Below, one piece after another: positions 1,920 to 27,940 of a stretch of 28,206 nucleotides of DNA. The notes below the pieces were generated by a model that had not been told where the DNA came from, did no database searches, and saw only the letters and a list, made by a program, of their open reading frames with translations. The stretch comes from a virus: positions 1 through 28,206 of the IMG/VR virus record IMGVR_UViG_3300006753_000045. One strand, given 5' to 3'. Within the stretch, counting starts at the first letter, position 1. Each line of letters starts with the position of its first letter. The translations under genes were made by a program, and so were the position numbers.

Positions 1920-4900
1920 TTAAAGACTGTATTTATTACCCTTTTTGCTTTTATAAGTTTGGACACCTACCCCAAAGAATGCGGGAACACCAACTGAAAA
2001 GATGCCCTCCGATCCTCTGTCTTGTACTCCCTCATAGAGGTCTTGAAGATAAAGAGGTATTGTTTTTTCTGCTACCTCTCCCTTCAATTCTATATCCCCT
2101 CCGAAAAGTTTTTGACCATCAAGAAGTTCAAGTGTTAGTGCCGGAATCGGTGCGAGTTTCCCTCGTGCAAATCGTGTGCCGATTGTAAGTCTTGTATCAA
2201 ATGGGAATTTATCTTTATCTAAAGGAACTACATCACCACTAGTAGTTTTCTTTGATCCTGAAACTATTTGTGAGAAGACTCTAACCCATTGCTGAAAACC
2301 TCCCCACATATCCCACCTTGTATTTCCTACTCTAATTTTTCCAAAGTCTGTACTACGTGGATCAACTTCAACGTCAACATTATCTCCGCCAATAGCATTA
2401 ACCAATCCAAGTATTGTAGTTCCTGTGGCGATAAACTGTGCAAAATTTTTAATTGCCTCTTTTCTGACTTGAGGAGTTTGTTTTGCATACCATACTGGAT
2501 TGAAAAGACTGAAACGTGCAGAAATCAAACGAGGTGAAAAGAAGGCTGTGTTAAGCGCTTGTGCAGACTTTTCTAAAGCACCAAGCTTTCCACGACCAGT
2601 ACCAACATTTACAAACTCTGCGATAGATTTTAAATCTTTAACAGTAAGTTTCTTTTCCTTTCCAAATTTAGTAACGAGTTGAGTGAAAACATCAACTCTT
2701 AATTTATTTAAAAATCCGACAAAAGATCTTTCAGAGGCTCTAACCATTGCTCCTATAACTGGAATTTTACCTGCAAGGTTTGACATAAACGCTTCTTCTT
2801 TTCCTGAAAGACCACGAGCTAAACTATCAGGATCAGCCAAGTAAAGTTTTCCTGCTTTCATTTGAGAATAAAGAGGATGATTAGGGACATCATCTAACCA
2901 TTGCTTAAAGTTCTTAGGTGAAAAAACCTGACGAAACATCTCTTTTGTAGCACTAGCAAACGCCTTAGGTTTTGTTGTGAAGAATAATCCCTGTCTTAAT
3001 GGTGCGGACATATCAAAAGAAGTAATCAACGTTCTAGGAACATTCATCGCTTCAGTTATTGCATCACCAAGTTTTGCAGTGAATTTTCTTTTCTTAAGAA
3101 TTTCAGCCACAAGCTCTCTGCCATAAACATCTTCAAGAAAACCAAGCTCTCCTTTTGTAGGAAGAGATCCATTCAAAAGTTTATTCAATGAGTTTTGGAC
3201 TGTAACCTTCTCAAAGACATCAAGATGAGGATGCTTTTGTGCGATATTAAATAGATCGTCAACATCTTCAATATCAAGTTTAACTAATTCAAAAGTTTTC
3301 TTTTCAGCTAGTTCTCCCTTCAATTTTGAAAGAGACTGATAGTATCCTTTCTGACCTTCTCCTCCCTTAAAGATACCCCCAATAGCACCTGCTCTTCTAG
3401 CCCTCTCTGCTGTGAAAGCAGTCTCAAGCTCTTGACGTGGCGTTCCTGCCTCTTTAACAGCTTTAATTAGCTTTGATACTGCATCATCAACTTTGGCTAG
3501 GGGTTCAAGAGAGCTTTCAAACATTTCTCCACTTGTTTTAATTTTAGGTGCTTCGCCTCGTATCTTAGCTTTAATCTCTGGTGTTAGTTTTATACCTTGT
3601 TGGGTTGTGAGTTTTTGTGAGATGTCAAAGGGTTTCATTCCACTTGGAGCAACTTTCTTTAAGTATGCAATCGCTTCGGGAATTGTTTTGTTTGTAGCAA
3701 ACCTCTTGTCGTTTATCACTGAATCAATATGACTTTTCGGCACTGCCTTAAACTTTCCATCTCCTAGTATGTCGGTGATGATGTATAGTTCGTGGCTGGA
3801 GCCATCATAGGCATCTTTCTGTAATTCGTAACCAATTTTATATTTATTCCCTAATTCTTCTGGTAATATCCCCTCTCTTGTTTCATAAGTATTGCGTGGG
3901 TCAATAAATCTTGACTTTTTCCTAGCGTTTTCTATCGGCAACCCCATATCCAACTTCTCTATCTTAGCTCCTGTGAGGTCTTCAACGATATTCTTAACTT
4001 GTTTGTCATAGAGGTTATCAGCCCATTCACCACCGAACTTTAAGCCCTCTCCTGATAGAGTGCCTTTCTCTTTGCCCATTATCTTGTCTGCTAGACCTTT
4101 GCCTAATACTTCGTCTAGTTTTTTACCCTTCATATCTAAAGGAGTGCCATCTTCTATTGATTTAATTACACCATTTTTATCTATTCCAAACTCAAATCTA
4201 CCAGCATCTCTTGGGTTTAATTTTATAGTTTTAATTGTTCCGGGTGTTACATCAAACAAGTCACTACCACCCCATTTAACATCCTTAACATAAGTAGCCA
4301 AATTATACCTAGCACTTGTTTGTTTTCCATTTATCCAAGCGAAGTAATCGCTGTCGTTCTCTACTGCTTCTTTTAATGCTCGTTTGACACTAGGAGTTTC
4401 CCAATTTTTTAACATTTGATTAACTGGAGTTTTTGATTTTACCTTGCCAGACAAAGCGTCACGAACATACTGATTTGCTTTTTCGGTATCAACAACGCCA
4501 TTAACTGTAAACTTTTCTTTAGCTTCATCTCGCAATGCTCTCATCCAATCACTCTGTAATTCTTCCATAAAAGAAACCTTCTTACCCTTGTAGGTTCTTT
4601 CGTTCATACGGAGGTGAGAGAGGACATTAGGTTCGTCCCAGTGCCCAGTTCTAAATTGTTTTTGCCTACCTTGTTCTACTGTTTGTTTCAAAAATTCATA
4701 ATCACTTTTTTGTTGTGCTGTTAAATTTTTCCCAAGGGAATTTTCTAAAAAATCTAATCTTTTTATTTCAGCATTGGTTAAAATTCCTTTTGTCGGTGCC
4801 TTAATCAATATCTCCTTATAGTTCTTACCTTCTGGGAGTTGGTATTGGGAGTATCTGGTATCCTGTGCTATTTCTCTAGCCTGTTCAACTGTTTCATCTC

Positions 4901-6092
4901 CACGAAGTCCTTTATATGTTTCCTCCAACCCCTCTAATTCAGGTGCAAAAGGTTTAGCCTCACCACTTATGCTTTGTCCTTTAATGTTTTGGAATTGGTT
5001 TTTGGTTACAATATAAGTTTCTCCATCTTGAAGAAGCACCTTATTCCCTTTCATCTCATAAGGTCTTAAAGCTAAGCCTTTAGGTAGTTCTACTTTGTTT
5101 CCATAAATATCTTTAGCTGGAACATCTCTTTTAAGCTGTATGTCGGGATACTTTTTCATTATGTCATCAGCAGTCATCCCTTTTGTGCCACGAAGTGTAT
5201 CAGTAAATTCTTCTACTCCTTTAGAAATCTTTTGACCTACTGATTCAGTAATTTTTTTACTCACTTGCTTACCTACTCTCCTTAATCCTCCAGCAAATCC
5301 AAATGGGTCAAGACCAATTCCACCTTGTGGTTGTGAATAAAGATTAAGAGTTTCTTTACCTAAATGCATTCCACCAACTGGTGTCCTCTCTTCAGGGGGA
5401 TGAAGGAATGAAGTTATCTTTTGTTGGATTGGAGTTTCTCTTCTTAATATCTTTCCAATAGGTTTGAAAAAAGGTTTTGTCGCATCTTCAAGAAGTTTAA
5501 TCCCTACAGACCCCTTTAAGAGTCCTACAGTCTCAATAACCTCTCTTTTTGTGGAGGCACGAGCTAGTTTAGGAGCATATTCTTTTGCTACATCAGCCGG
5601 TATGCCTGACTTAATCAATATCTTCATTACCCCCTCTGAAGTAGTCTCTCTAACAAGAGCTTTAACTGCTGTTTTACTACCAATTAAGGGTGTTAGATCA
5701 AGGGCTGTATCCCCGATAATTGCACCAAAAGCTAGAGGCAATGCAAACTTATCTATTCCCAACTTTTGTGCAGTAGGGCTACTCTTAACTGCGATCTCTG
5801 CATCAGCAACCCTTCTCTCAACTGTTTGGATAGGTTCATCACCAAAGATCGCCTTAAAGACTTTGCCTTCAGGAGTGAACTCATCATCAGCACCAAGTTT
5901 GTCTGCAACAGTAACACCGGCACTTCCTATATTCCGTGTGATACCCCTGAAAATAGTTTTAGCTGTATCTTTTAGAGCCTTAGGTAACCCCAAGACTGTA
6001 TTCAAAGCAACACCAAAGTTTGTTGAAGCAAAAGGTGTATCAACTTCAGGAGTGTTAAATTTATTTGTTGGTAGATCAAACTTATTTGCCAT
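1920..6092 (-). CDS. large polyvalent internal virion / ejection-type protein, 1390 aa
   Basis: The longest gene in the window. No signal peptide is seen. The N-terminal third is helical and Ala/Lys-rich with a hydrophobic stretch near residues 120-140. Around residues 413-525 is a module ending in HWDEPNVLSHLRM (H484) and FMEELQSDW, which I recognise as a recurrent motif of large phage polyvalent proteins without a known reaction. From about residue 1020 (SFDMSAPLRQG) to the end is a second module with FFSPR, then DFGKIRVGNTRWDMWGGF near residue 1250 and a TIPLYLQDLYEG tail. This is also typical of the C-termini of such virion proteins. In podoviruses these giants are usually internal proteins ejected with the DNA. 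It lies downstream of the LysM protein and upstream of lysis genes. Catalytic activity, if any, is unassigned. Confidence 0.75.
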   Translation of the reverse strand: MANKFDLPTNKFNTPEVDTPFASTNFGVALNTVLGLPKALKDTAKTIFRGITRNIGSAGVTVADKLGADDEFTPEGKVFKAIFGDEPIQTVERRVADAEIAVKSSPTAQKLGIDKFALPLAFGAIIGDTALDLTPLIGSKTAVKALVRETTSEGVMKILIKSGIPADVAKEYAPKLARASTKREVIETVGLLKGSVGIKLLEDATKPFFKPIGKILRRETPIQQKITSFLHPPEERTPVGGMHLGKETLNLYSQPQGGIGLDPFGFAGGLRRVGKQVSKKITESVGQKISKGVEEFTDTLRGTKGMTADDIMKKYPDIQLKRDVPAKDIYGNKVELPKGLALRPYEMKGNKVLLQDGETYIVTKNQFQNIKGQSISGEAKPFAPELEGLEETYKGLRGDETVEQAREIAQDTRYSQYQLPEGKNYKEILIKAPTKGILTNAEIKRLDFLENSLGKNLTAQQKSDYEFLKQTVEQGRQKQFRTGHWDEPNVLSHLRMNERTYKGKKVSFMEELQSDWMRALRDEAKEKFTVNGVVDTEKANQYVRDALSGKVKSKTPVNQMLKNWETPSVKRALKEAVENDSDYFAWINGKQTSARYNLATYVKDVKWGGSDLFDVTPGTIKTIKLNPRDAGRFEFGIDKNGVIKSIEDGTPLDMKGKKLDEVLGKGLADKIMGKEKGTLSGEGLKFGGEWADNLYDKQVKNIVEDLTGAKIEKLDMGLPIENARKKSRFIDPRNTYETREGILPEELGNKYKIGYELQKDAYDGSSHELYIITDILGDGKFKAVPKSHIDSVINDKRFATNKTIPEAIAYLKKVAPSGMKPFDISQKLTTQQGIKLTPEIKAKIRGEAPKIKTSGEMFESSLEPLAKVDDAVSKLIKAVKEAGTPRQELETAFTAERARRAGAIGGIFKGGEGQKGYYQSLSKLKGELAEKKTFELVKLDIEDVDDLFNIAQKHPHLDVFEKVTVQNSLNKLLNGSLPTKGELGFLEDVYGRELVAEILKKRKFTAKLGDAITEAMNVPRTLITSFDMSAPLRQGLFFTTKPKAFASATKEMFRQVFSPKNFKQWLDDVPNHPLYSQMKAGKLYLADPDSLARGLSGKEEAFMSNLAGKIPVIGAMVRASERSFVGFLNKLRVDVFTQLVTKFGKEKKLTVKDLKSIAEFVNVGTGRGKLGALEKSAQALNTAFFSPRLISARFSLFNPVWYAKQTPQVRKEAIKNFAQFIATGTTILGLVNAIGGDNVDVEVDPRSTDFGKIRVGNTRWDMWGGFQQWVRVFSQIVSGSKKTTSGDVVPLDKDKFPFDTRLTIGTRFARGKLAPIPALTLELLDGQKLFGGDIELKGEVAEKTIPLYLQDLYEGVQDRGSEGIFSVGVPAFFGVGVQTYKSKKGNKYSL

Positions 6093-17607: not shown

Positions 17608-18243
17608 TCACTCCAAGAGCTTTGCCCCCTTCTCATAATCCAGTTCAAACTTACGACCATCACGAGTAACAAAGAAACCCTGCGGCTTCCCGTCAAACGT
17701 GAAGGCACGAACCTGACGTGTTAGATTCATTCCTCCTTCAAGAGCTTTGCGGAGATATAGACCTCTCTTCTCCAAATCTTGAGGCACAGCCATCCATTGA
17801 CCTTGAATTAAGTCAACGAAACGTCTTTTGAAGAGTGTGAAGATAGCCTCTTCTGCCTTAGAAAACAAGGTTTGCGCTGTATCACTCTCCTCAATAGAGA
17901 AACGCTCAATCTCAATGATATTTCCCGTGTCAATTCCCGCCGAGAGGACGTGAAGGGTAATACCCGCTTCATCTTCGCCATTGAAAAGACTCCAAGATAA
18001 GGTACAACTTCCCGCATATTCAGGAAGAATTCCCGGATGCAGATTGAAGTAGCCAACATCAGGATCAAGGAGATTATCAGGAATAATCCTCTTATACATC
18101 ACCGAGATTACGACATCATAGCCAGTATTATCTTCAGTATAGGTATCGGATATAGACAACTCCACTTCATTAGGAAGATGCATTGAAGCCCATTCAAAGC
18201 ATCTTCTTCCTATTGGTCTTGATGTTAAAAGTAATAATCTCAT
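17608..18243 (-). CDS. sugar N-formyltransferase (WbkC-like, formyl-THF dependent)
   Basis: 211 residues. The N-10-formyltetrahydrofolate transferase core is clear: FNLHPGILPEYAGSCTLSWS with catalytic N67 and H69, and HVLSAGIDTGNII with D105. These three residues form the Asn-His-Asp catalytic set of the family. At this length it is a stand-alone sugar N-formyltransferase, not methionyl-tRNA formyltransferase, which is about 310 residues with a C-terminal domain. The tail YLRKALEGGMNLTRQVRAFT, then FDGKPQGFF, is also typical of sugar formyltransferases. With gmd and the perosamine-type aminotransferase it gives GDP-N-formylperosamine, as in Brucella O-antigen. It overlaps its upstream neighbour by four bases (ATGA type). 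Another amino sugar is possible. Confidence 0.87.
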   Translation of the reverse strand: MRLLLLTSRPIGRRCFEWASMHLPNEVELSISDTYTEDNTGYDVVISVMYKRIIPDNLLDPDVGYFNLHPGILPEYAGSCTLSWSLFNGEDEAGITLHVLSAGIDTGNIIEIERFSIEESDTAQTLFSKAEEAIFTLFKRRFVDLIQGQWMAVPQDLEKRGLYLRKALEGGMNLTRQVRAFTFDGKPQGFFVTRDGRKFELDYEKGAKLLE

Positions 18244-19085
18244 AGTATCTCCTTTAGTCTATTATGTATGGCTTTAGCCATTACTTGTGGTGTGAACTGA
18301 TTACAGAACTCTCTACATTTTATTTTATCTAACTTACGTGGAAAATTCCACATTTTTCTTAATTGTTTTTTAAGATCAACAATATAAGCATAGTCAAAGT
18401 ATTCTGCCTTGTCTCCGAAATAATCTCTTGCTCCCATATATGGAGAGTTTGAAACTAAAACAGGCTTACCTAAGTTATAAGCTTCAAGAAGAGTCAATCC
18501 TCCTGTTGAAGCCTCATAATAAGGGCAAACTAAGAAAGAACAAGTTGAGAGTTTTTCTTGAAACTCTGCTTCACTCCATCCGTGATTTGGTGTAAAAGAG
18601 GGAATACCCAATTCTGCCACCGCCTTTTCAAACATTCCGAGATTACGATCAGGTTGTGAACGCATAACGTTAATAATGAAACGTTTATCTTCAACCTTGA
18701 CTGGCGGTTCAAAGAAACGAGCAAACGTCTTAATGATATAATAACTCTTTAAGTTGTAGTATTCAATAAGTCTCCTGTTGACAGATTCAGAAGGAGTCCA
18801 AGTCTCAATTCCTTCGTGCATAAACTGCCCGTAAGCATCCCAATCATAGCCACGAGGATTAGTCCTAGTCCATTCGTAAACATCCCAACAATAATTTACA
18901 ACAGGAACATCAGGGCATTGATCGTGCAGTCTCTTAGCAAGATTAAGCTGAGAATTGCTCCATACGATCATTACGTCAGTTTGTGGGGTTACATCATTCC
19001 AAAGAATAATATGCCCTAAATCATTAAGATAAGGTACGAGATCCTTTAGAAAGTTATTTTGTGGAATGATAAAACTTATTCGCAT
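18240..19085 (-). CDS. glycosyltransferase, GT-B fold (family 4-like)
   Basis: 281 residues, shorter than most GT4 enzymes because the N-terminal domain is compact. Visible are VVNYCWDVYEW, WTPSESVNRRLIEYY, and the donor-site signature EASTGGLTLLEAYNLGKPV (residues 191-209), with acidic residues E191 and E201 in the EX7E-like arrangement and a CP(Y)YEAST lead-in. No membrane segment. It overlaps the formyltransferase by four bases and the methyltransferase upstream by ten, so it is firmly within one operon. Donor unknown; GDP sugars made here are plausible. Confidence 0.82.
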   Translation of the reverse strand: MRISFIIPQNNFLKDLVPYLNDLGHIILWNDVTPQTDVMIVWSNSQLNLAKRLHDQCPDVPVVNYCWDVYEWTRTNPRGYDWDAYGQFMHEGIETWTPSESVNRRLIEYYNLKSYYIIKTFARFFEPPVKVEDKRFIINVMRSQPDRNLGMFEKAVAELGIPSFTPNHGWSEAEFQEKLSTCSFLVCPYYEASTGGLTLLEAYNLGKPVLVSNSPYMGARDYFGDKAEYFDYAYIVDLKKQLRKMWNFPRKLDKIKCREFCNQFTPQVMAKAIHNRLKEIL

Positions 19086-19540
19086 AATATTTTGTGTGGA
19101 TTTGGATCGTGACTAGGAAAAACAATTATTCTTTTTGCGACTCTCTTTGCCTCTTCAAGTAAACAATTATTGAACTCTTGTCCTTCAATCGCACCAATTT
19201 CATCATTCAAAACTCCGACAGAAATAACCCAGTCAAACTCATTATCCTTAAAATCATTATTAAGAAAATCAGCTAAGATAAATCTTTTCTTAGGATACTT
19301 CCTGTGTGCTTCATCAATAAATTCAGGAGTAATATCAATACCGGTATATTCAGTAACTTCTGAAGGAAGTACATCAACAAGTCGTCCATAGCCACAGCCA
19401 AGATCAAGAACCTTCCCCCAAACACATTTTTTAAGAACTTCTTTTTTATTATTCATTCCACTATTACCTGAGATAGCAGAGATAAACCCTGTTTTTCTAA
19501 GTCTATTTTGCCAAAACTCAGGTGTAGTGAACGCCCACAT
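19076..19540 (-). CDS. class I SAM-dependent methyltransferase, short form
   Basis: 154 residues. Motif I is VLDLGCGYGRLVDVL (44-58), followed by TGIDITPEFIDEAHRKYP (D69), FILADFLN and FDWVISVGVLNDE (motif IV region). It stops soon after the fold's core, so it lacks the C-terminal strands seen in larger members; about 150 residues is nevertheless near the lower limit of complete small methyltransferases. The start overlaps the previous stop (TAATG). It may methylate a sugar in the same glycan. Distinct in sequence from the other methyltransferase at 16998-17585. Confidence 0.78.
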   Translation of the reverse strand: MWAFTTPEFWQNRLRKTGFISAISGNSGMNNKKEVLKKCVWGKVLDLGCGYGRLVDVLPSEVTEYTGIDITPEFIDEAHRKYPKKRFILADFLNNDFKDNEFDWVISVGVLNDEIGAIEGQEFNNCLLEEAKRVAKRIIVFPSHDPNPHKILCE

Positions 19541-20436
19541 TAGACTATTTTGTTCTTTACAAGAGTATGAATAAGAGTCTCAAGTCTCTTAGAGTATGTA
19601 TAATCAGTTATTGTCTTTTTATATCCTGCTATTTGGATCTTCTTTCTTTCTTCTTCATTTTCAAGATAATAATCAATTTTATCTTTCAGTTGATGCCCTG
19701 TAGCATACATAGCAACCTCCTCATCCTTTTTAAACTCTTCCTTAAGACCTTCAAGTTTAGGATAAAGCATAAATCCGCCTGATCCAGTAGTCATATAAAC
19801 ACGACTAGACCAATAAAAATCATCTTGAGGTGTACGGGGCGAAACAATAATTTTTACCGAAGCACAGGCATCATATAAATCTCGTCCAAAGACATTTGAA
19901 AAGATCCTAAACTTATCGCCATAAGTTTCTTGCAGACCTCTAACAAATGACTCTCGTTGAGCGCCATAGACACTTCCAAAAAATGCAATATCACAAGCAT
20001 ACTCTTCTTTAAATTCTCCTAGAGAAGTATCCTCATCACCAATTCCCTGATTAAGATAAGTTATATTTGGATAGTTCTGCCTTCTGATCCACGTACCATC
20101 AGTTAAGAAGGCGTGATCAATATACGGAATAACCGTGTGCATCCAATGTTCTCTTTCACCATCAAAAACCTTATCAAAATACCAAAAAACCTTAGGTATG
20201 GTTACCTTGTTTAATAATTCAATAAGTTCAGGGAGTTCAACATCAAATGCTTGACCTCCTTTATGAAATAGTAAAAGATCCTTGCCTCTGCAAGTTTTAA
20301 CTATTTCATCAACATCAAAGTCCTTCTCATCAATTTGAGTAACTTCGTGTCCTAGTTTTTCAAGAGAAAACACTATGTGTTTCTCAGTAGTGTCTGAAAA
20401 TTTGTTGCCAAAATTTCCTAAGTACGCAATTAACAT
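19540..20436 (-). CDS. CgeB-like glycosyltransferase (GT-B fold)
   Basis: 298 residues from the ATG at 20436 (MLIAYLGNFGNKF). An upstream TTG at 20499 would add a leader that runs into the hairpin after the capsid gene and is rejected. Features: KHIVFSLEKLGHEVTQID at the N-terminus, FHKGGQAFD, FWYFDKVFDG, DHAFLTDGTW, CDIAFFGSVYGAQRESFV, VSPRTPQDDFYWSSRVYM with TTGSGGFMLYP, then a C-terminal helix. The 'SSRVYMTTGSGGFML' region is typical of CgeB/spore-maturation type glycosyltransferases. It is the first sugar gene after the major capsid gene, so it would be expressed at high late-gene level unless the hairpin at 20494-20520 attenuates. Confidence 0.78.
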   Translation of the reverse strand: MLIAYLGNFGNKFSDTTEKHIVFSLEKLGHEVTQIDEKDFDVDEIVKTCRGKDLLLFHKGGQAFDVELPELIELLNKVTIPKVFWYFDKVFDGEREHWMHTVIPYIDHAFLTDGTWIRRQNYPNITYLNQGIGDEDTSLGEFKEEYACDIAFFGSVYGAQRESFVRGLQETYGDKFRIFSNVFGRDLYDACASVKIIVSPRTPQDDFYWSSRVYMTTGSGGFMLYPKLEGLKEEFKKDEEVAMYATGHQLKDKIDYYLENEEERKKIQIAGYKKTITDYTYSKRLETLIHTLVKNKIV

Positions 20437-20493
20437 AAGCAGTATAGATAATTTAATAATGAGTAGTGGAGTGGGGAAGAGCCTAGCTTTCTT

Positions 20494-20520
20494 CCCCAAC
20501 CCGCTAGACAGGGGTCGGGG
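20494..20520 (-). other. stable hairpin after the major capsid gene, no T-run
   Basis: On the minus strand CCCCGACCC pairs with GGGTTGGGG (nine pairs, one G-U) around the loop CTGTCTAGC. No run of T follows, so it is not a standard intrinsic terminator. It lies between the capsid stop (20541) and the first sugar gene (20436). It may protect the 3' end of capsid mRNA after cleavage or slow read-through, letting the capsid be made in excess over the sugar enzymes. Confidence 0.65.
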
Positions 20521-24207: not shown

Positions 24208-25494
24208 TTAAACAAACGAGTTCCGCTTTTTTCTAGCCCCTTCTTTCATTGTCTTTTTTAACAAACTTTCTTGCCTACCTTTTCCAATTAAAGTCCAAAC
24301 AGATAATGCCAAAGAGTTAACACAATCATCGTGTTTGCCTGTCGGCGCTCCGTAAGAAAAGTGTCCCTTGTCTGTAAGGATATAACCAAAATGATCTAGC
24401 TCATCAAGTAGCGGACGATATGCCGGAATAAATATATTCCCCTGCTCTATCCAAATTGTTAGCTTTTCAATAAGTTGAAGTTTACTTTTCCCTGAATACT
24501 TAAAGTCATCTACCAAAATTCCTGCCCTTCTTAGATCTTCACTGATTGGATCTCCTACTCCTGTAGAGTCAATTACCAGACGGGCATTATTATAACGCTT
24601 TGCTAGGGCAATTATCCTAGCTTTCTGTATATTCCACCCAATTTCATTAAATCTATCTATATGAACGACACTATTTATAGAGCGATCCATCACAGTTAGC
24701 ACTGTATAGTCCCGATATTTCGCTAAATCTACTCCGATTGTATAAAAATGTCCCTTTTCAGAGTCCCTTTCTATCCCATCTCTGATAATATCGTAAACTC
24801 CCCTGAAAACTGCAGAGGCATCATCAAGGAAATCTGCCTGATATTCCTGTTGAAAGACGTGTTTCGGCAACATTTCCTCTGCTCTTTCCCATTCACCCTT
24901 AGGAAAATAAGGATTAGACCTACTCTCAAAACGAAAAGCACCGCCATTTGCATCAGCTTCAACGTACCGGTCATTAAACCAGTTTTTACCTAAAGGAGTG
25001 GAGATGAAAATAGTCTTACCTTGTCTTGAAGAAGTGGTTGGAAACAAAAACTGCTCCCAAATTCTCCGATCTATTTGAGCGGCTTCATCAACAATGAGAA
25101 GGTCAAGTTCTTCTCCCAAAAGCGACTTCGGATTTTCTGCGGATTTACATTCAACCACAGATCCAGTTGCAGTTTGTATCTTCGGGTAAGGTCTATAAAC
25201 CACTCCTTTGAGTTGCGAAGGGGCAACCACACCGAACCACCGGACAAGATAATTGAAAACCTTAAGAGATAGATCATATGTTGGAGAGACAATCCAAATC
25301 TTCTTATTGGGCTGTACTAGAACCCTTAAGGCAATATAGGCACACAGAGCCGACTTACCCCAACGCCTACCTGCACAAAGAACTACAATTCTTAGTTTCT
25401 CAATCGCTCTCAAGACTGGATTCTGATCCTCGTGAGGAGTCCACCCAATCTTTTCTTGCAGTCTTTTATCGTCTATTTTAATTGTCTCTGCCAT
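24208..25494 (-). CDS. terL: large terminase subunit (ATPase plus nuclease)
   Basis: 428 residues from the ATG at 25494 (MAETIKIDDKRL). The ATPase has Walker A GRRWGKS (42-48), Walker B LLIVDE (132-137) with the catalytic glutamate, and the coupling motif FISTPLGKNWF. The RNase H-like nuclease has GVDLAKYRDYTVL (D256), LVIDSTGVGDP (D309) and GKHDD (D389, D390), the three acidic clusters that bind metal. It drives DNA packaging through the portal and cuts the concatemer. The upstream TTG at 25533 is rejected. A strong Shine-Dalgarno-like AAGGAGG lies 18 bases before the ATG, too far for normal use. It lies within a small overlapping ORF that may couple translation. Confidence 0.95.
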   Translation of the reverse strand: MAETIKIDDKRLQEKIGWTPHEDQNPVLRAIEKLRIVVLCAGRRWGKSALCAYIALRVLVQPNKKIWIVSPTYDLSLKVFNYLVRWFGVVAPSQLKGVVYRPYPKIQTATGSVVECKSAENPKSLLGEELDLLIVDEAAQIDRRIWEQFLFPTTSSRQGKTIFISTPLGKNWFNDRYVEADANGGAFRFESRSNPYFPKGEWERAEEMLPKHVFQQEYQADFLDDASAVFRGVYDIIRDGIERDSEKGHFYTIGVDLAKYRDYTVLTVMDRSINSVVHIDRFNEIGWNIQKARIIALAKRYNNARLVIDSTGVGDPISEDLRRAGILVDDFKYSGKSKLQLIEKLTIWIEQGNIFIPAYRPLLDELDHFGYILTDKGHFSYGAPTGKHDDCVNSLALSVWTLIGKGRQESLLKKTMKEGARKKRNSFV

Positions 25495-25540
25495 ACATAT
25501 ATTTAAAGTTGCCCTCCTTGATATAAAGTTCAAAATCCAT
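25478..25540 (-). CDS. possible 20-residue leader peptide overlapping the large terminase start
   Basis: The frame begins MDFELYIKEGNFK with GAGGAAGGGT just before its ATG, a good ribosome site, and ends 14 bases inside the large terminase gene. The downstream gene's own AAGGAGG is inside this ORF. A ribosome finishing the peptide would end at the terminase start, which suggests translational coupling. Short, so chance cannot be excluded. Confidence 0.4.
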   Translation of the reverse strand: MDFELYIKEGNFKYMYGRDN

Positions 25541-25568
25541 ACCCTTCCTCAAAAGAACAATAATACCC

Positions 25569-25700
25569 TCACAGGGAACAGGTAGATAGGAATGGAATAT
25601 ATTTACCAAGTGAAACCTGATGTGTTGACCAAACAACGCCTATCTACCTAGTGAACTCGTGGGGGAGTCACCCCAAACCAACGCCTCATATCCCCTGTGA
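25569..25700 (-). ncRNA. predicted three-way-junction RNA or structured packaging-type site between the terminase genes
   Basis: Outer stem: TCACAGGGA (25569-25577) with TCCCCTGTGA (25691-25700), nine pairs with one bulged C. Second stem: AGGTAGATAGG (25580-25590) with CCTATCTACCT (25639-25649), eleven perfect pairs. Third stem: either GTGAACTC with GAGTCAC (25651-25671, one bulge) or GGGG-AGTCA-CCCC (25662-25674); these exclude each other. The outer stem's 3' arm on the minus strand can also refold as CCCT-GTG-AGGG. It contains no long ORF. Strand is assumed from the late operon; as DNA it would be symmetric. Possible roles: a small RNA, a 5' leader of the large terminase, or the site where small terminase binds. 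Confidence 0.5.
25629..25686. repeat. direct repeat CCAAAC(C)AACGCCT, two copies
   Basis: Copies at 25629-25641 (13 bases) and 25673-25686 (14 bases) differ by one inserted C and lie 44 bases apart. One lies in the second stem and its loop, the other in the linker of the predicted junction. Repeated short motifs of this sort are common at phage packaging or initiator binding sites. Confidence 0.6.
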
Positions 25701-25728
25701 AAGTACTATTACAATTATTATCCCATCA

Positions 25729-25881
25729 TTAAGTGTCAAAGACTAGGAAAGTAAGGTGACAACAAAGCCTGAACAACTTAACTATCTGCTTAGCAGTACT
25801 CTCAGAATTTATAGAAATCTCTACCTCTTGTCCGTCAGGACAAGGGTTATCAGGATAGGGAGTAAATAGATATTTATTCAT
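25729..25881 (-). CDS. small hypothetical protein, 50 aa
   Basis: Starts MNKYLFTPYPDNPCPDGQEV and continues with a polar helix (STAKQIVKLF) and a cysteine-rich hydrophobic end (RLCCHLTFLVFDT). The amino-acid mix looks like a real protein, with three cysteines. No good Shine-Dalgarno sequence. It sits between the small-terminase cluster and the structured element. Below the length where ORF evidence is strong; no family recognised. Confidence 0.45.
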   Translation of the reverse strand: MNKYLFTPYPDNPCPDGQEVEISINSESTAKQIVKLFRLCCHLTFLVFDT

Positions 25882-26174
25882 AGCTGTTATTTGTCATATT
25901 TGAACTTCTAATGTTTGGCTGTACCCTATATCAGTTATAGCAACTCTCCTTTGATACCCTCTCCCCTTAGTTTCTATGATTTAAAGCTATTTATACCTAT
26001 ATTTGAGCTATATCTAGTACTTTCAAGCTAAAAGCTAGAAAAAGGTACTCGGAATGTCTAGTTTAAAGGTGTGAATGGGAGTATTTCATATTTTAGGACA
26101 TATTTTATAATAATACTTCTGATCCTTAATATCCTCTCTCTATGGTACTTATACAACCCCTGACCCTGACGGGA
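25882..26174. other. 293-base non-coding stretch between the terminase genes
   Basis: AT-rich with no ORF over about 25 codons in a sensible context. It holds an imperfect hairpin at 26018-26047 with the inner palindrome AGCT-AAA-AGCT flanked by GTAC arms. Another hairpin, TGACCC-TGAC-GGG(A)TCA at 26161-26177, overlaps the stop of the 26-residue ORF. Several TATA-rich steps could be -10 elements, but none has a convincing -35 partner. Confidence 0.4.
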
Positions 26175-26255
26175 TCAGATGGAACGCCGGTGCTTTATGA
26201 TCATAATTATCCCTATAATGAAAAACACTACTAAAAGTTTATCTACTAAGCTCAT
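26175..26255 (-). CDS. possible 26-residue membrane microprotein
   Basis: Encodes a peptide starting MSLVDKLLVVFFIIGIIMII and ending in a basic tail (KHRRSI): one membrane span, positive end, the form of phage lysis or toxin-like micropeptides. AGGAG lies directly before the ATG, too close for ideal spacing. It overlaps the 3' end of the 59-residue membrane ORF in another frame. Its stop lies in a hairpin. Confidence 0.4.
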   Translation of the reverse strand: MSLVDKLLVVFFIIGIIMIIKHRRSI

Positions 26256-26418
26256 CTCCTGTGTTTAATTTTTCTATTACTTCAATCTTATGATCAGTCC
26301 TTTCACTAATCCGGCGGGAGTTTCCCCGCTTATTGCGGTTTACCCTTTCATAAGCCCGTCCAAAAGTGAACACAAGCCAAACGACTATTAAAATTCCTAT
26401 TATTTTCAGTATTATCAT
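26239..26418 (-). CDS. small membrane protein, 59 aa, coupled to the small terminase gene
   Basis: N-terminal hydrophobic segment (MIILKIIGILIVVWLVFTFG, residues 1-20) followed by a highly charged tail (RAYERVNRNKRGNSRRISE). One membrane span with a cytoplasmic basic domain. Its ATG overlaps the small-terminase stop (TAATG), strong evidence that it is translated. It resembles inner-membrane spanin or lysis-accessory proteins in layout, and the overlapping 26-residue membrane ORF recalls nested lysis genes, but no family signature is present. Confidence 0.65.
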   Translation of the reverse strand: MIILKIIGILIVVWLVFTFGRAYERVNRNKRGNSRRISERTDHKIEVIEKLNTGDELSR

Positions 26419-26801
26419 TATGTTTTTTCTACTACACTAATAGATCCTAGCTCATCTTGATACTTCATAGCCCTAAGTTTATTTTGAGGGTAGCGATCTT
26501 TGAGCTTTAATAGCATATCGGCACTTTGTAAACTTGCCCGTTTATCATCATCAACCAAGATTGAAAAAAGCCGTCCAAGAATAATATCATCATCAATTTG
26601 AGCCAGTAAGTATTGGAATCCAGCACTCTCCGTCACACGTTGCGGGGAGTTTTGAACCGACACAGCATAACCACTTTCAGCGAGAATATCTTTCATTACC
26701 ACTTTCTCCTTGTTTCTGACCTTTTCTGACATCAGTTTAACAACGGACTTGTGGTTTTCCGTTGGTTTAACGTTGTATTTTGGCTCTTTTATAGTTTTCA
26801 T
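26418..26801 (-). CDS. terS: small terminase subunit
   Basis: 127 residues. An N-terminal basic region leads into a helix-turn-helix (residues about 32-58: EKVVMKDILAESGYAVSVQN, then SPQRVTES), the DNA-recognition domain of phage small terminases. A central helix (FQYLLAQIDDDIILGRLFSI) and DDKRASLQSADMLLKLKDRYP follow as the oligomerisation part; 'LQSADMLLKLKDRYP' is typical of the family. It would bind the packaging site and load the large subunit. Normally the two subunits are adjacent; here about 740 bases with a structured element separate the end of this gene's partner ORFs and the large subunit. Start ATG at 26801 has no strong ribosome site. Confidence 0.82.
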   Translation of the reverse strand: MKTIKEPKYNVKPTENHKSVVKLMSEKVRNKEKVVMKDILAESGYAVSVQNSPQRVTESAGFQYLLAQIDDDIILGRLFSILVDDDKRASLQSADMLLKLKDRYPQNKLRAMKYQDELGSISVVEKT

Positions 26802-26816
26802 TAAATTTATCAGGAG

Positions 26817-26825
26817 TTATCCACA
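26817..26825 (+). promoter_or_regulatory. DnaA-box consensus match TTATCCACA
   Basis: An exact nine-base match, ten bases upstream of the early promoter's -35 element and 16 bases from the small-terminase start. See the second copy at 24168. It could couple phage transcription or replication to host DnaA, or be chance. Confidence 0.4.
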
Positions 26826-26834
26826 TTCTTTGGT

Positions 26835-26863
26835 TTGACTTATCCCACAGGTGGGATTATACT
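26835..26863 (+). promoter_or_regulatory. strong early promoter with a palindromic operator in its spacer
   Basis: TTGACT (26835-26840), a 17-base spacer, TATACT (26858-26863): five of six consensus bases in each box at ideal spacing. The spacer is filled by ATCCCAC-AG-GTGGGAT, a perfect seven-base inverted repeat (26842-26857), so a repressor bound there would block RNA polymerase. Expected start near 26870. It drives the rightward small genes and points away from the late operon. Confidence 0.8.
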
Positions 26864-26884
26864 ACATAACAAGAAGGCGAGAAC
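26856..26884 (-). promoter_or_regulatory. possible divergent promoter for the small terminase and late genes
   Basis: On the minus strand there is a perfect TATAAT (26861-26856) overlapping the early promoter's -10 box. Only a weak -35, TTCTCG, lies 16 bases upstream. The start would be near 26849, inside the same palindromic operator, so one regulator could control both directions. Confidence 0.3.
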
Positions 26885-26993
26885 ACGAGAGCGGACGAGA
26901 ACAAAAACATATTCAAAAATTATAAAAAAGTTTCTGCGGTTCGCTCTCTCCCTCCTTCCCGAATTTTATCAGGTCTTTAAAAACTATGCAATT
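26870..26993 (+). promoter_or_regulatory. structured leader of the first early gene
   Basis: Begins at the predicted start point and carries AGGCGAGAACA (26874-26884), the block found again before the next two genes. A seven-pair stem, GAGAGCG (26887-26893) with CGCTCTC (26942-26948), encloses an A-rich loop of 48 bases. CCTCCTT (26951-26957), equal to the 16S anti-Shine-Dalgarno sequence, lies just after. No good ribosome site precedes the ATG at 26994. Confidence 0.45.
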
Positions 26994-27113
26994 ATGAAAT
27001 ACTGGATAATTTTTATCGTTCTGTTTTTGCTTGGGATCGCATACCTTATTTGGCTAGACTGGGGCTGTGATCTCTCTGGCATTATGACTTGGAGCGGTAA
27101 AGTTTGTATTTAG
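26994..27113 (+). CDS. small membrane protein, 39 aa
   Basis: One membrane span (residues 3-20, YWIIFIVLFLLGIAYLIW), then a short outside or periplasmic tail with two cysteines (WGCDLSGIMTWSGKVCI). The pair could form a disulfide. First gene of the early transcript. The longer frame from 26835 would start upstream of the promoter's own start point and is rejected. Possible superinfection exclusion or host-membrane role, by analogy with other early phage membrane peptides; not shown by sequence. Confidence 0.6.
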   Translation: MKYWIIFIVLFLLGIAYLIWLDWGCDLSGIMTWSGKVCI

Positions 27114-27248
27114 CCCTTGATATTGATCTTTAGTAGCGGGAATATTCGCCCCGCTAAGTCGTCTAGCGACAGGGACTCGCTAAAGATCAATAATGAGGGG
27201 CGAAAGCCCTTTTGGTCGGATATTATTACAATTAGGCGAGAACATATT
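27108..27248 (+). promoter_or_regulatory. structured leader element, copy 1
   Basis: Starts in the stop of the previous gene. Long stem: TATTGATCTTTAG (27121-27133) with CTAAAGATCAATA (27180-27192), 13 perfect pairs. Inside: TAGCGGG/CCCGCTA (27134-27140 / 27150-27156) and GTCG/CGAC (27158-27161 / 27167-27170). After it: a GNRA hairpin, AGGGGC-GAAA-GCCCTT (27196-27211). AATAAT (27189-27194) can instead pair with ATTATT (27222-27227), excluding the end of the long stem. It ends with AGGCGAGAACAT, a weak ribosome site eight bases before the ATG at 27249. Copy 2 shares the order of stems. Confidence 0.65.
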
Positions 27249-27647
27249 ATGGATTATAAAAAACAAGGCGAGGACTTTTTGAAAAAGACAAAAACCACGC
27301 TTGAGTTTGTGGAGTGTACCCCTCAAAAATCCCCACTATGGGCGAAAGAAGGAGAAGAACACGGCACAGAATACACTATAACCCTAAAAAACGAAAAAGG
27401 AGAGTATTCTTTTGGTTATTGGGGAAGTATTGCGGACAAAGAGGAGAAGAGAAAGCCAACAGCTTACTCAATCCTTGCCTGTCTTGACGTTTTTGATGGT
27501 GATTTCTCTGAGTTTTGCTCGTGTTTTGGTTATGACGAGGACAGCAGAACAGCAGAAAAAACCTTCCACGCCGTTCAAGAGCAGAGCAACAATTTACGAA
27601 GAATTTTTACTCATAAAGAATTGGGAAAGCTCCAAGAAATAAATTAG
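27249..27647 (+). CDS. conserved hypothetical phage protein
   Basis: 132 residues from the ATG at 27249 (MDYKKQGEDFLKKTKTTLEF). The middle has EYTITLKNEKGEYSFGYWGS, then KPTAYSILACLDVFD, and DFSEFCSCFGYDEDSRTAEK with a C-terminal helix. The 'PTAYxxLACLxxxD ... FCxxFGYDEDSxxAEKxxxAV' pattern is one I recognise as a hypothetical family common in phages and bacterial mobile elements; its function is unknown. The ORF extends upstream to 27117, but that part is the structured leader, so the internal ATG is preferred. Cytoplasmic, no membrane segment. Confidence 0.78.
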   Translation: MDYKKQGEDFLKKTKTTLEFVECTPQKSPLWAKEGEEHGTEYTITLKNEKGEYSFGYWGSIADKEEKRKPTAYSILACLDVFDGDFSEFCSCFGYDEDSRTAEKTFHAVQEQSNNLRRIFTHKELGKLQEIN

Positions 27648-27778
27648 ATTTAGCTCTTGATATTGCTCTTTAGATCCGCAGAGTACTCTGAACGGCTAAT
27701 AATTTATCGGCGGGGTCGCTAGAGAGCAATAATCAGGCACTAAAGGTCGGTGATTATTGGAATAATAGGCGAGAACAT
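27648..27778 (+). promoter_or_regulatory. structured leader element, copy 2
   Basis: Long stem: TATTGCTCTTTAG (27661-27673) with CTAGAGAGCAATA (27719-27731), 12 Watson-Crick pairs and one G-U. Compared with copy 1, an A-T pair has become C-G in step. Inside is CCG-CAGAG-TA-CTCTG-AA-CGG (27676-27695). AATAATCA (27728-27735) pairs with TGATTATT (27751-27758), overlapping the long stem; ATTATT-GG-AATAAT (27753-27766) is a third option. It ends AGGCGAGAACAT before the ATG at 27779. Confidence 0.65.
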
Positions 27779-27940
27779 ATGAACGAAGAAACTTTTGGAG
27801 CATTAAAGCGGATCGTTGAAGAAGTAGAAGAAAAACGCAAAGCTGAATGTTTAATGAAAGATTGCATCATAAACCACAATATCGGCGGGAATGATATAGA
27901 TCTCGTTAAAACTTGGATCAAAGACAATGAAAAAACCTAG
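27779..27940 (+). CDS. small acidic hypothetical protein, 53 aa
   Basis: Starts MNEETFGALKRIVEEVEEKR, an amphipathic helix, then AECLMKDCIINHNIGGNDID with two cysteines, and a C-terminal helix (LVKTWIKDNEKT). It follows the second structured leader directly. The composition fits a small early regulatory or host-takeover protein; no family recognised. The next gene's ATG overlaps its last codons by 14 bases. Confidence 0.65.
   Translation: MNEETFGALKRIVEEVEEKRKAECLMKDCIINHNIGGNDIDLVKTWIKDNEKT

Follow-up and report, generated by a model that had tools for sequence, protein, structure and literature searches.

The closest described counterpart of the locus considered here is found in phage T7, whose late RNase III site R18.5 reportedly lies between genes 18 (TerS) and 18.5/19, as Dunn and Studier are said to have described in 1983. 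Computed folding of T7 gives a strong long-stem structure after TerS, and this long hairpin is presumably R18.5. Hairpins also stand before early genes in T4-type phages, in the form of PeSL cassettes composed of a promoter plus a stem-loop. RNase III acts specifically on double-stranded RNA, a single 12-bp stem is enough for its single-strand cleavage, and the T7 site R1.1 takes part in the maturation and protection of T7 mRNAs (PMC8708148). A different use of RNA is known from phi29, in which a packaging RNA is the required scaffold for the ATPase ring and no small terminase exists; headful systems lack packaging RNA of this type (PMC7823558).

The stretch of DNA analysed here, referred to as the window, is the whole of a 28,206-base linear IMG/VR virus record (IMGVR_UViG_3300006753_000045), and it carries a folded element directly before the large terminase gene terL. 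The gene order TerS, Rz-like spanin, TerL is that of T7, and the two loci are further alike in having a long near-perfect RNA stem in the TerS-TerL interval, on the transcribed strand, and a small ORF of membrane or spanin type between the genes. T7 differs in that its TerS gene is followed at once by a plain long hairpin, whereas a three-way junction directly before TerL is found here; moreover, the two show no sequence relation, belong to different phage groups, and the host RNase is assumed in the present case. The resemblance to PeSL cassettes consists in hairpin elements between small phage genes and is closer for the early leaders of the same window than for the terL element, which occurs as a single copy in the late operon with no promoter-like site found on the minus strand. 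Non-coding repeats near the terminase genes recall cos and pac sites, from which the element is set apart by strand-specific G-U-only pairing indicative of RNA and by a location that is not conserved in relatives.

Genome context of the terminase genes

The structural genes are carried by the minus strand, and a divergent early region occupies the plus strand from about position 26,900. The terL gene (24208-25494, minus strand) encodes the Terminase_6N and Terminase_6C (RNase H-like) domains, with both the ATPase and the nuclease domain present. The ORF at 26418-26801 (minus strand) is the probable terS gene. No family matches it with confidence, and the assignment comes from homologues sharing 37-42% identity over the alignment and located directly before TerL in relatives L012, L019, L021 and L034, together with a homologue in L015 that gives a weak TerS match (E=0.027). 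The sequence-only reading had placed the element between the terminase genes, which is right only if this ORF is indeed the small terminase, a premise backed by those homologues next to TerL.

The TerS-TerL interval spans about 925 nt and contains a 59-aa ORF (26239-26418, minus strand) featuring one likely membrane helix and a weak Rz-like spanin match (E=0.011). From this ORF to terL extend about 700 bases, mostly non-coding, with the structured element at their end, about 60 nt short of terL. The stop of a possible 20-aa leader ORF (25478-25540, minus strand; SD-like GAGGAAGGGT) overlaps the terL start. Just upstream of the element, a 50-aa ORF (25729-25881, minus strand) shows a weak DUF6888 match (E=0.006) under the curated cut-off. 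Elsewhere in the window, a formyltransferase gene and two glycosyltransferase genes (17608-20499, minus strand) adjoin the capsid gene within the set of structural genes, which suggests sugar modification.

Architecture of the element upstream of terL

On the minus strand, which is the terL-sense strand, the whole element covers 25557-25712 and adopts the form of a three-way junction, in which stems of 24 and 11 pairs stack coaxially into a rod and a side arm branches off. The outer stem, recognized by the stem scan and by pair probabilities, consists of 24 uninterrupted pairs between a 5' arm at 25689-25712 and a 3' arm at 25557-25580, and 7 of the 24 pairs are G-U on the minus strand and A-C mismatches on the plus strand. 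The perfect 11-pair inner stem is formed by a 5' arm at 25639-25649 (AGGUAGAUAGG) and a 3' arm at 25580-25590, the latter adjoining the outer 3' arm without spacer; the inner stem stacks directly on the outer one along the 3' strand, and base 25580 is able to pair in either. The inner 5' arm with its preceding base bears TAG triplets that close all three reading frames. The third arm of the junction (25650-25688) can form two mutually exclusive hairpins, GGGG/CCCC and GUGACUC/GAGUUCAC, and two small hairpins occupy the inner loop at 25605-25637 (25634-25637 with 25624-25627, and 25615-25621 with 25605-25611). In both the outer and the inner stem the core bases pair with a probability of about 1.0, and the third arm is split between its folds with probabilities of about 0.4 versus 0.2-0.3. 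A uridine-rich run, UUCUUUU, follows immediately after the outer 3' arm.

The 11-pair perfect stem and the third stem with two competing folds are both present as the sequence-only reading had described them. Its enclosing stem likewise exists, yet as 24 unbroken pairs on the minus strand instead of nine pairs with a bulge, a description that the plus strand or the truncated coordinates would yield; the 132-base span given for the structure (25569-25700) clips this stem, whose arms extend out to 25557 and 25712.

Within the element, two imperfect tandem copies lie at 25601-25686 (minus strand) with a spacing of 41-45 nt, starting with AGGCGTTG(G)TTTGG and ending with TTCACTWGGTARAT. Repetitiveness of this degree was reached by none of 1500 shuffles, and the internal repeat could have arisen by an old duplication or could serve as two binding sites. 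A third copy of AGGCGTTG, inside terL, is Walker A coding sequence and was taken as a coincidence.

A fold beyond chance expectation

The folded structure upstream of terL is genuine and too regular for chance. The 24-pair stem is the longest of its kind in the window, followed by one of 17 pairs, and the longest stem in 160 dinucleotide shuffles of the whole window had at most 19. The minus strand of 25557-25712 folds at -61.2 kcal/mol compared with an average of -40.7 for shuffled sequences (sd 4.0, z = -5.2), an energy matched by 0 of 1500 shuffles, and the plus strand of the same region folds at -47.6 kcal/mol. In a sliding-window z-score over the whole window, the element region ranks among the structured stretches without being the top one, and coding regions score as well, so the unbroken stem is a better guide than folding energy, which on its own carries little weight.

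The strands differ in that the plus strand, at the same 24 positions, is unbroken only in an 8-pair core and has seven A-C mismatches, and the longest plus-strand stem anywhere in the window has 14 pairs. All seven non-Watson-Crick pairs of the outer stem are G-U on the minus strand only, an asymmetry expected about once in 128 under a duplex-DNA constraint, to be taken as a guide and not as a clean test since the search rule favours G-U. As these pairs are G-U solely on the minus strand, RNA and not duplex DNA is the likely form, and the element is likely an RNA read together with terL. There is good support for a structured RNA in the leader of terL, and among the options raised by the sequence-only reading it is that of a leader which fits best.

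Distribution among relatives

The element is kept only in contigs about 99.9% identical to the window (14 SNPs in alignments of up to 15.6 kb), and the single SNP within it, at 25638, falls on a base that is unpaired in the fold of this window. It is absent upstream of TerL in relatives with TerL identities of 63% (L004-L006), 49-55% (L012-L014, L019, L021) and lower, and was found nowhere in those records of relatives that were searched in full; the collections searched contained no homologues of intermediate divergence. An exact-pattern search of IMG/VR for the inner stem returned one contig alone, the near-identical one, and TerL, TerS and capsid searches for relatives keeping the element yielded near-identical contigs only. 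Viral and bacterial contigs from TerL profile scans were put through the stem scan for the region before TerL if this comprised at least 100 nt, and none of them reached 24 pairs. A covariance model built from two near-identical sequences recovered nothing but the near-identical contig from 34 relative loci and 28 whole records, and the best TerL in a protein scan of phage records had about 34% identity, which is too distant for covariation. Rfam scans, at the gathering cut-off and at E<=5, gave no family at the element.

Lack of conservation of the stems in relatives, which the sequence-only reading had listed among the observations that would count against its proposal, is therefore what is seen at TerL identities of 63% and below. 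This absence argues against an essential group-wide packaging role and not against a lineage-specific element, and what stands before terL is a true structured leader confined to one lineage.

The interval itself varies greatly. The two terminase genes overlap or nearly abut in L012, L019, L021, L034 and L032, and are 284-1577 nt apart in L013, L014, L015, L024 and the window; from these comparisons the terS-terL interval is a site where different inserts gather. Folding of the spacers showed no structure in L005, L006, L015 and L024 and a strong hairpin in L014. The gap of L014 (TerL 53%), at 4673-4708 and 4404-4530, contains this near-perfect hairpin along with AGAACCC repeats about 31 nt apart, the latter noticed by eye. 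In L015, a 1.6 kb terS-terL insert (4943-5940) encodes, by inspection, nucleotidyltransferase-like and polysaccharide-deacetylase-like proteins. Over 6 kb L005 and L006 share 99.4% identity, but a patch of 45 nt that directly follows GATAGGGGGCGGGG ahead of terL (115-160 in L005) is almost completely different, and both contigs start within 2 bases of the same place.

Structured leaders of the early genes

Two related structured leaders precede early genes of the same phage, at 27108-27247 and 27648-27780 on the plus strand, each with a stem of about 20 pairs that carries hairpins at its top. They share the 5' end TTTAGCYCTTGATATTGMTCTTTAG and the 3' end TAGGCGAGAACATAT and differ in the middle, and the changes between the copies of the stem keep the pairing (GAUCUUUAG/CUAAAGAUC versus GCUCUUUAG/CUAGAGAGC). 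Neither is in Rfam, and a pattern search of IMG/VR gave 34 hits outside the near-identical contig, all without the rest of the leader. Together with the terL element, the early leaders resemble the early and late RNase III sites of T7; stems near 20 pairs also occur in coding DNA once one-base bulges and mismatches are allowed, so part of the weight of this analogy falls on the repeat shared by the two leaders.

AGGCGAGAACA is found again at about 26875. In another record, L217 (about 1934-2010 and 2423-2510), a relative of an early gene (41% identity) is present in tandem, and in front of each copy stands a hairpin leader whose flanks (ATTGCCCC...GGGGCAGTAATAAG) are the same and whose loop differs, an arrangement reminiscent of T4 PeSL cassettes.

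Possible roles of the element

We tentatively propose that the element is a cis-acting structured RNA of the terS-terL late transcript serving as an RNase III-type processing or stability element, a reading that we regard as a real possibility with somewhat less than an even chance of being right. The late transcript would run from the probable terS into terL, and the long duplex would be either a substrate for a host double-strand-specific RNase (RNase III) or a plain 5' barrier to decay. A cut or block at the element would separate the terL mRNA from the upstream terS message and define its 5' end and stability, which would result in an adjusted TerL-to-TerS ratio, and it may be speculated that the competing folds of the side arm tune the processing. 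What computation shows is a long RNA duplex on the transcribed strand, from which we infer all the rest, namely RNase III, the transcript and the cut.

In favour of such processing, the element lies in the leader and on the transcribed strand, its 24 uninterrupted minus-strand pairs provide a duplex long enough for an RNase III site, and a scan for intrinsic terminators across 25400-27300 returned no terminator-like site. RNase III sites lack a strong consensus (PMC8708148), and sites without sequence conservation are therefore expected. Against processing, relatives with overlapping terS and terL manage without the element, no diverged relative that would show selection on pairing was found to keep it, and a host RNase III is an assumption: of the two bacterial records with the closest, though distant, bacterial relatives of TerL, one encodes a Pfam RNase III domain and the other, possibly incomplete, does not, and the phage record has none. 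A sigma-70 promoter scan directly upstream on the minus strand found none, and a TTGACA at about 25738-25743 has no matching -10 and was not used as evidence. An intrinsic terminator, which requires a G-C rich short-loop stem plus a U-tract, was rejected on the stem in spite of the U-rich run, and attC, retron, T-box and group I intron were dropped by inspection as their hallmarks are lacking.

The variability of the interval could instead mean that the element is an inserted or mobile hairpin cassette of little function for terL, one of many lineage-specific terS-terL inserts, as the intervals of relatives hold unrelated content and the element is missing from all except near-identical contigs. 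A mobile cassette is nevertheless unlikely, given that the genome contains a single copy, that other viral contigs lack the inner-stem pattern, that 28 related records have no copy beyond the near-identical contig, and that a decaying insert, unless very young, would lose 24 unbroken pairs with G-U-only changes. The same variable interval, the direct repeats in L014 and L015, the G-rich tracts in L005, L015 and L024, and the two imperfect tandem repeats inside the element would also suit a DNA packaging site (pac/cos) for the small terminase, with the repeats as putative binding sites and the RNA fold incidental. Contig IMGVR_3300037586_002145 even ends at window position 25637, inside the element; this is weak, however, as the end adjoins the SNP at 25638, which is able to break an assembly. 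As duplex DNA the outer arms are just 17/24 complementary, with all 7 exceptions G-U on one strand, and the overlapping terS and terL genes of some relatives leave no room for such a site there, so a packaging site is distinctly improbable. We hold equally doubtful a leader switch or attenuator in which the competing folds of the third arm and UUCUUUU control transcription into, or translation of, terL. The two mutually exclusive folds are of similar energy, the U-rich run follows the 3' arm, and the possible 20-aa leader ORF overlaps the terL start; yet no state leaves the outer or inner stem unpaired (pairing probability about 1), and a switch in the third arm would thus not extend to the U-run or to the start codon. 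In addition, the base of the outer stem is A-U rich with a loop of over 100 nt, no terminator-like site emerged from the scan, and riboswitch families gave no match at E up to 5. Both the packaging site and the leader switch are less likely than a processing or stability element.

A trans-acting RNA that forms part of the packaging motor, as in phi29, is very unlikely. The likeness amounts to a three-way-junction RNA that is roughly comparable in size and adjoins a packaging gene, and the sequence-only reading was correct in likening the two in position only, without a sequence match, since the Rfam scans (gathering cut-off or E<=5) are negative and the motor differs, being a genome-cutting one of a type with no known RNA of this kind. 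phi29 has neither a small terminase nor a nuclease-type TerL, whereas this phage encodes a canonical TerL with ATPase and nuclease domains and a probable TerS, which makes a packaging RNA of the phi29 type unlikely, and the element is absent from TerL relatives. That an ordinary TerS/TerL phage should employ a stable junction RNA binding terminase or portal during packaging, the first outside phi29-like phages, is just as remote a prospect; it would overturn the view of phi29-like motors as the sole users of packaging RNA, and the evidence points away from it.

If the terL element is instead a processing element, as tentatively proposed, an uncultured phage group would join the few in which the terS and terL messages are split by an RNA structure, and, taken with the two early leaders, it would suggest that long-stem leaders are placed at several points of this genome.
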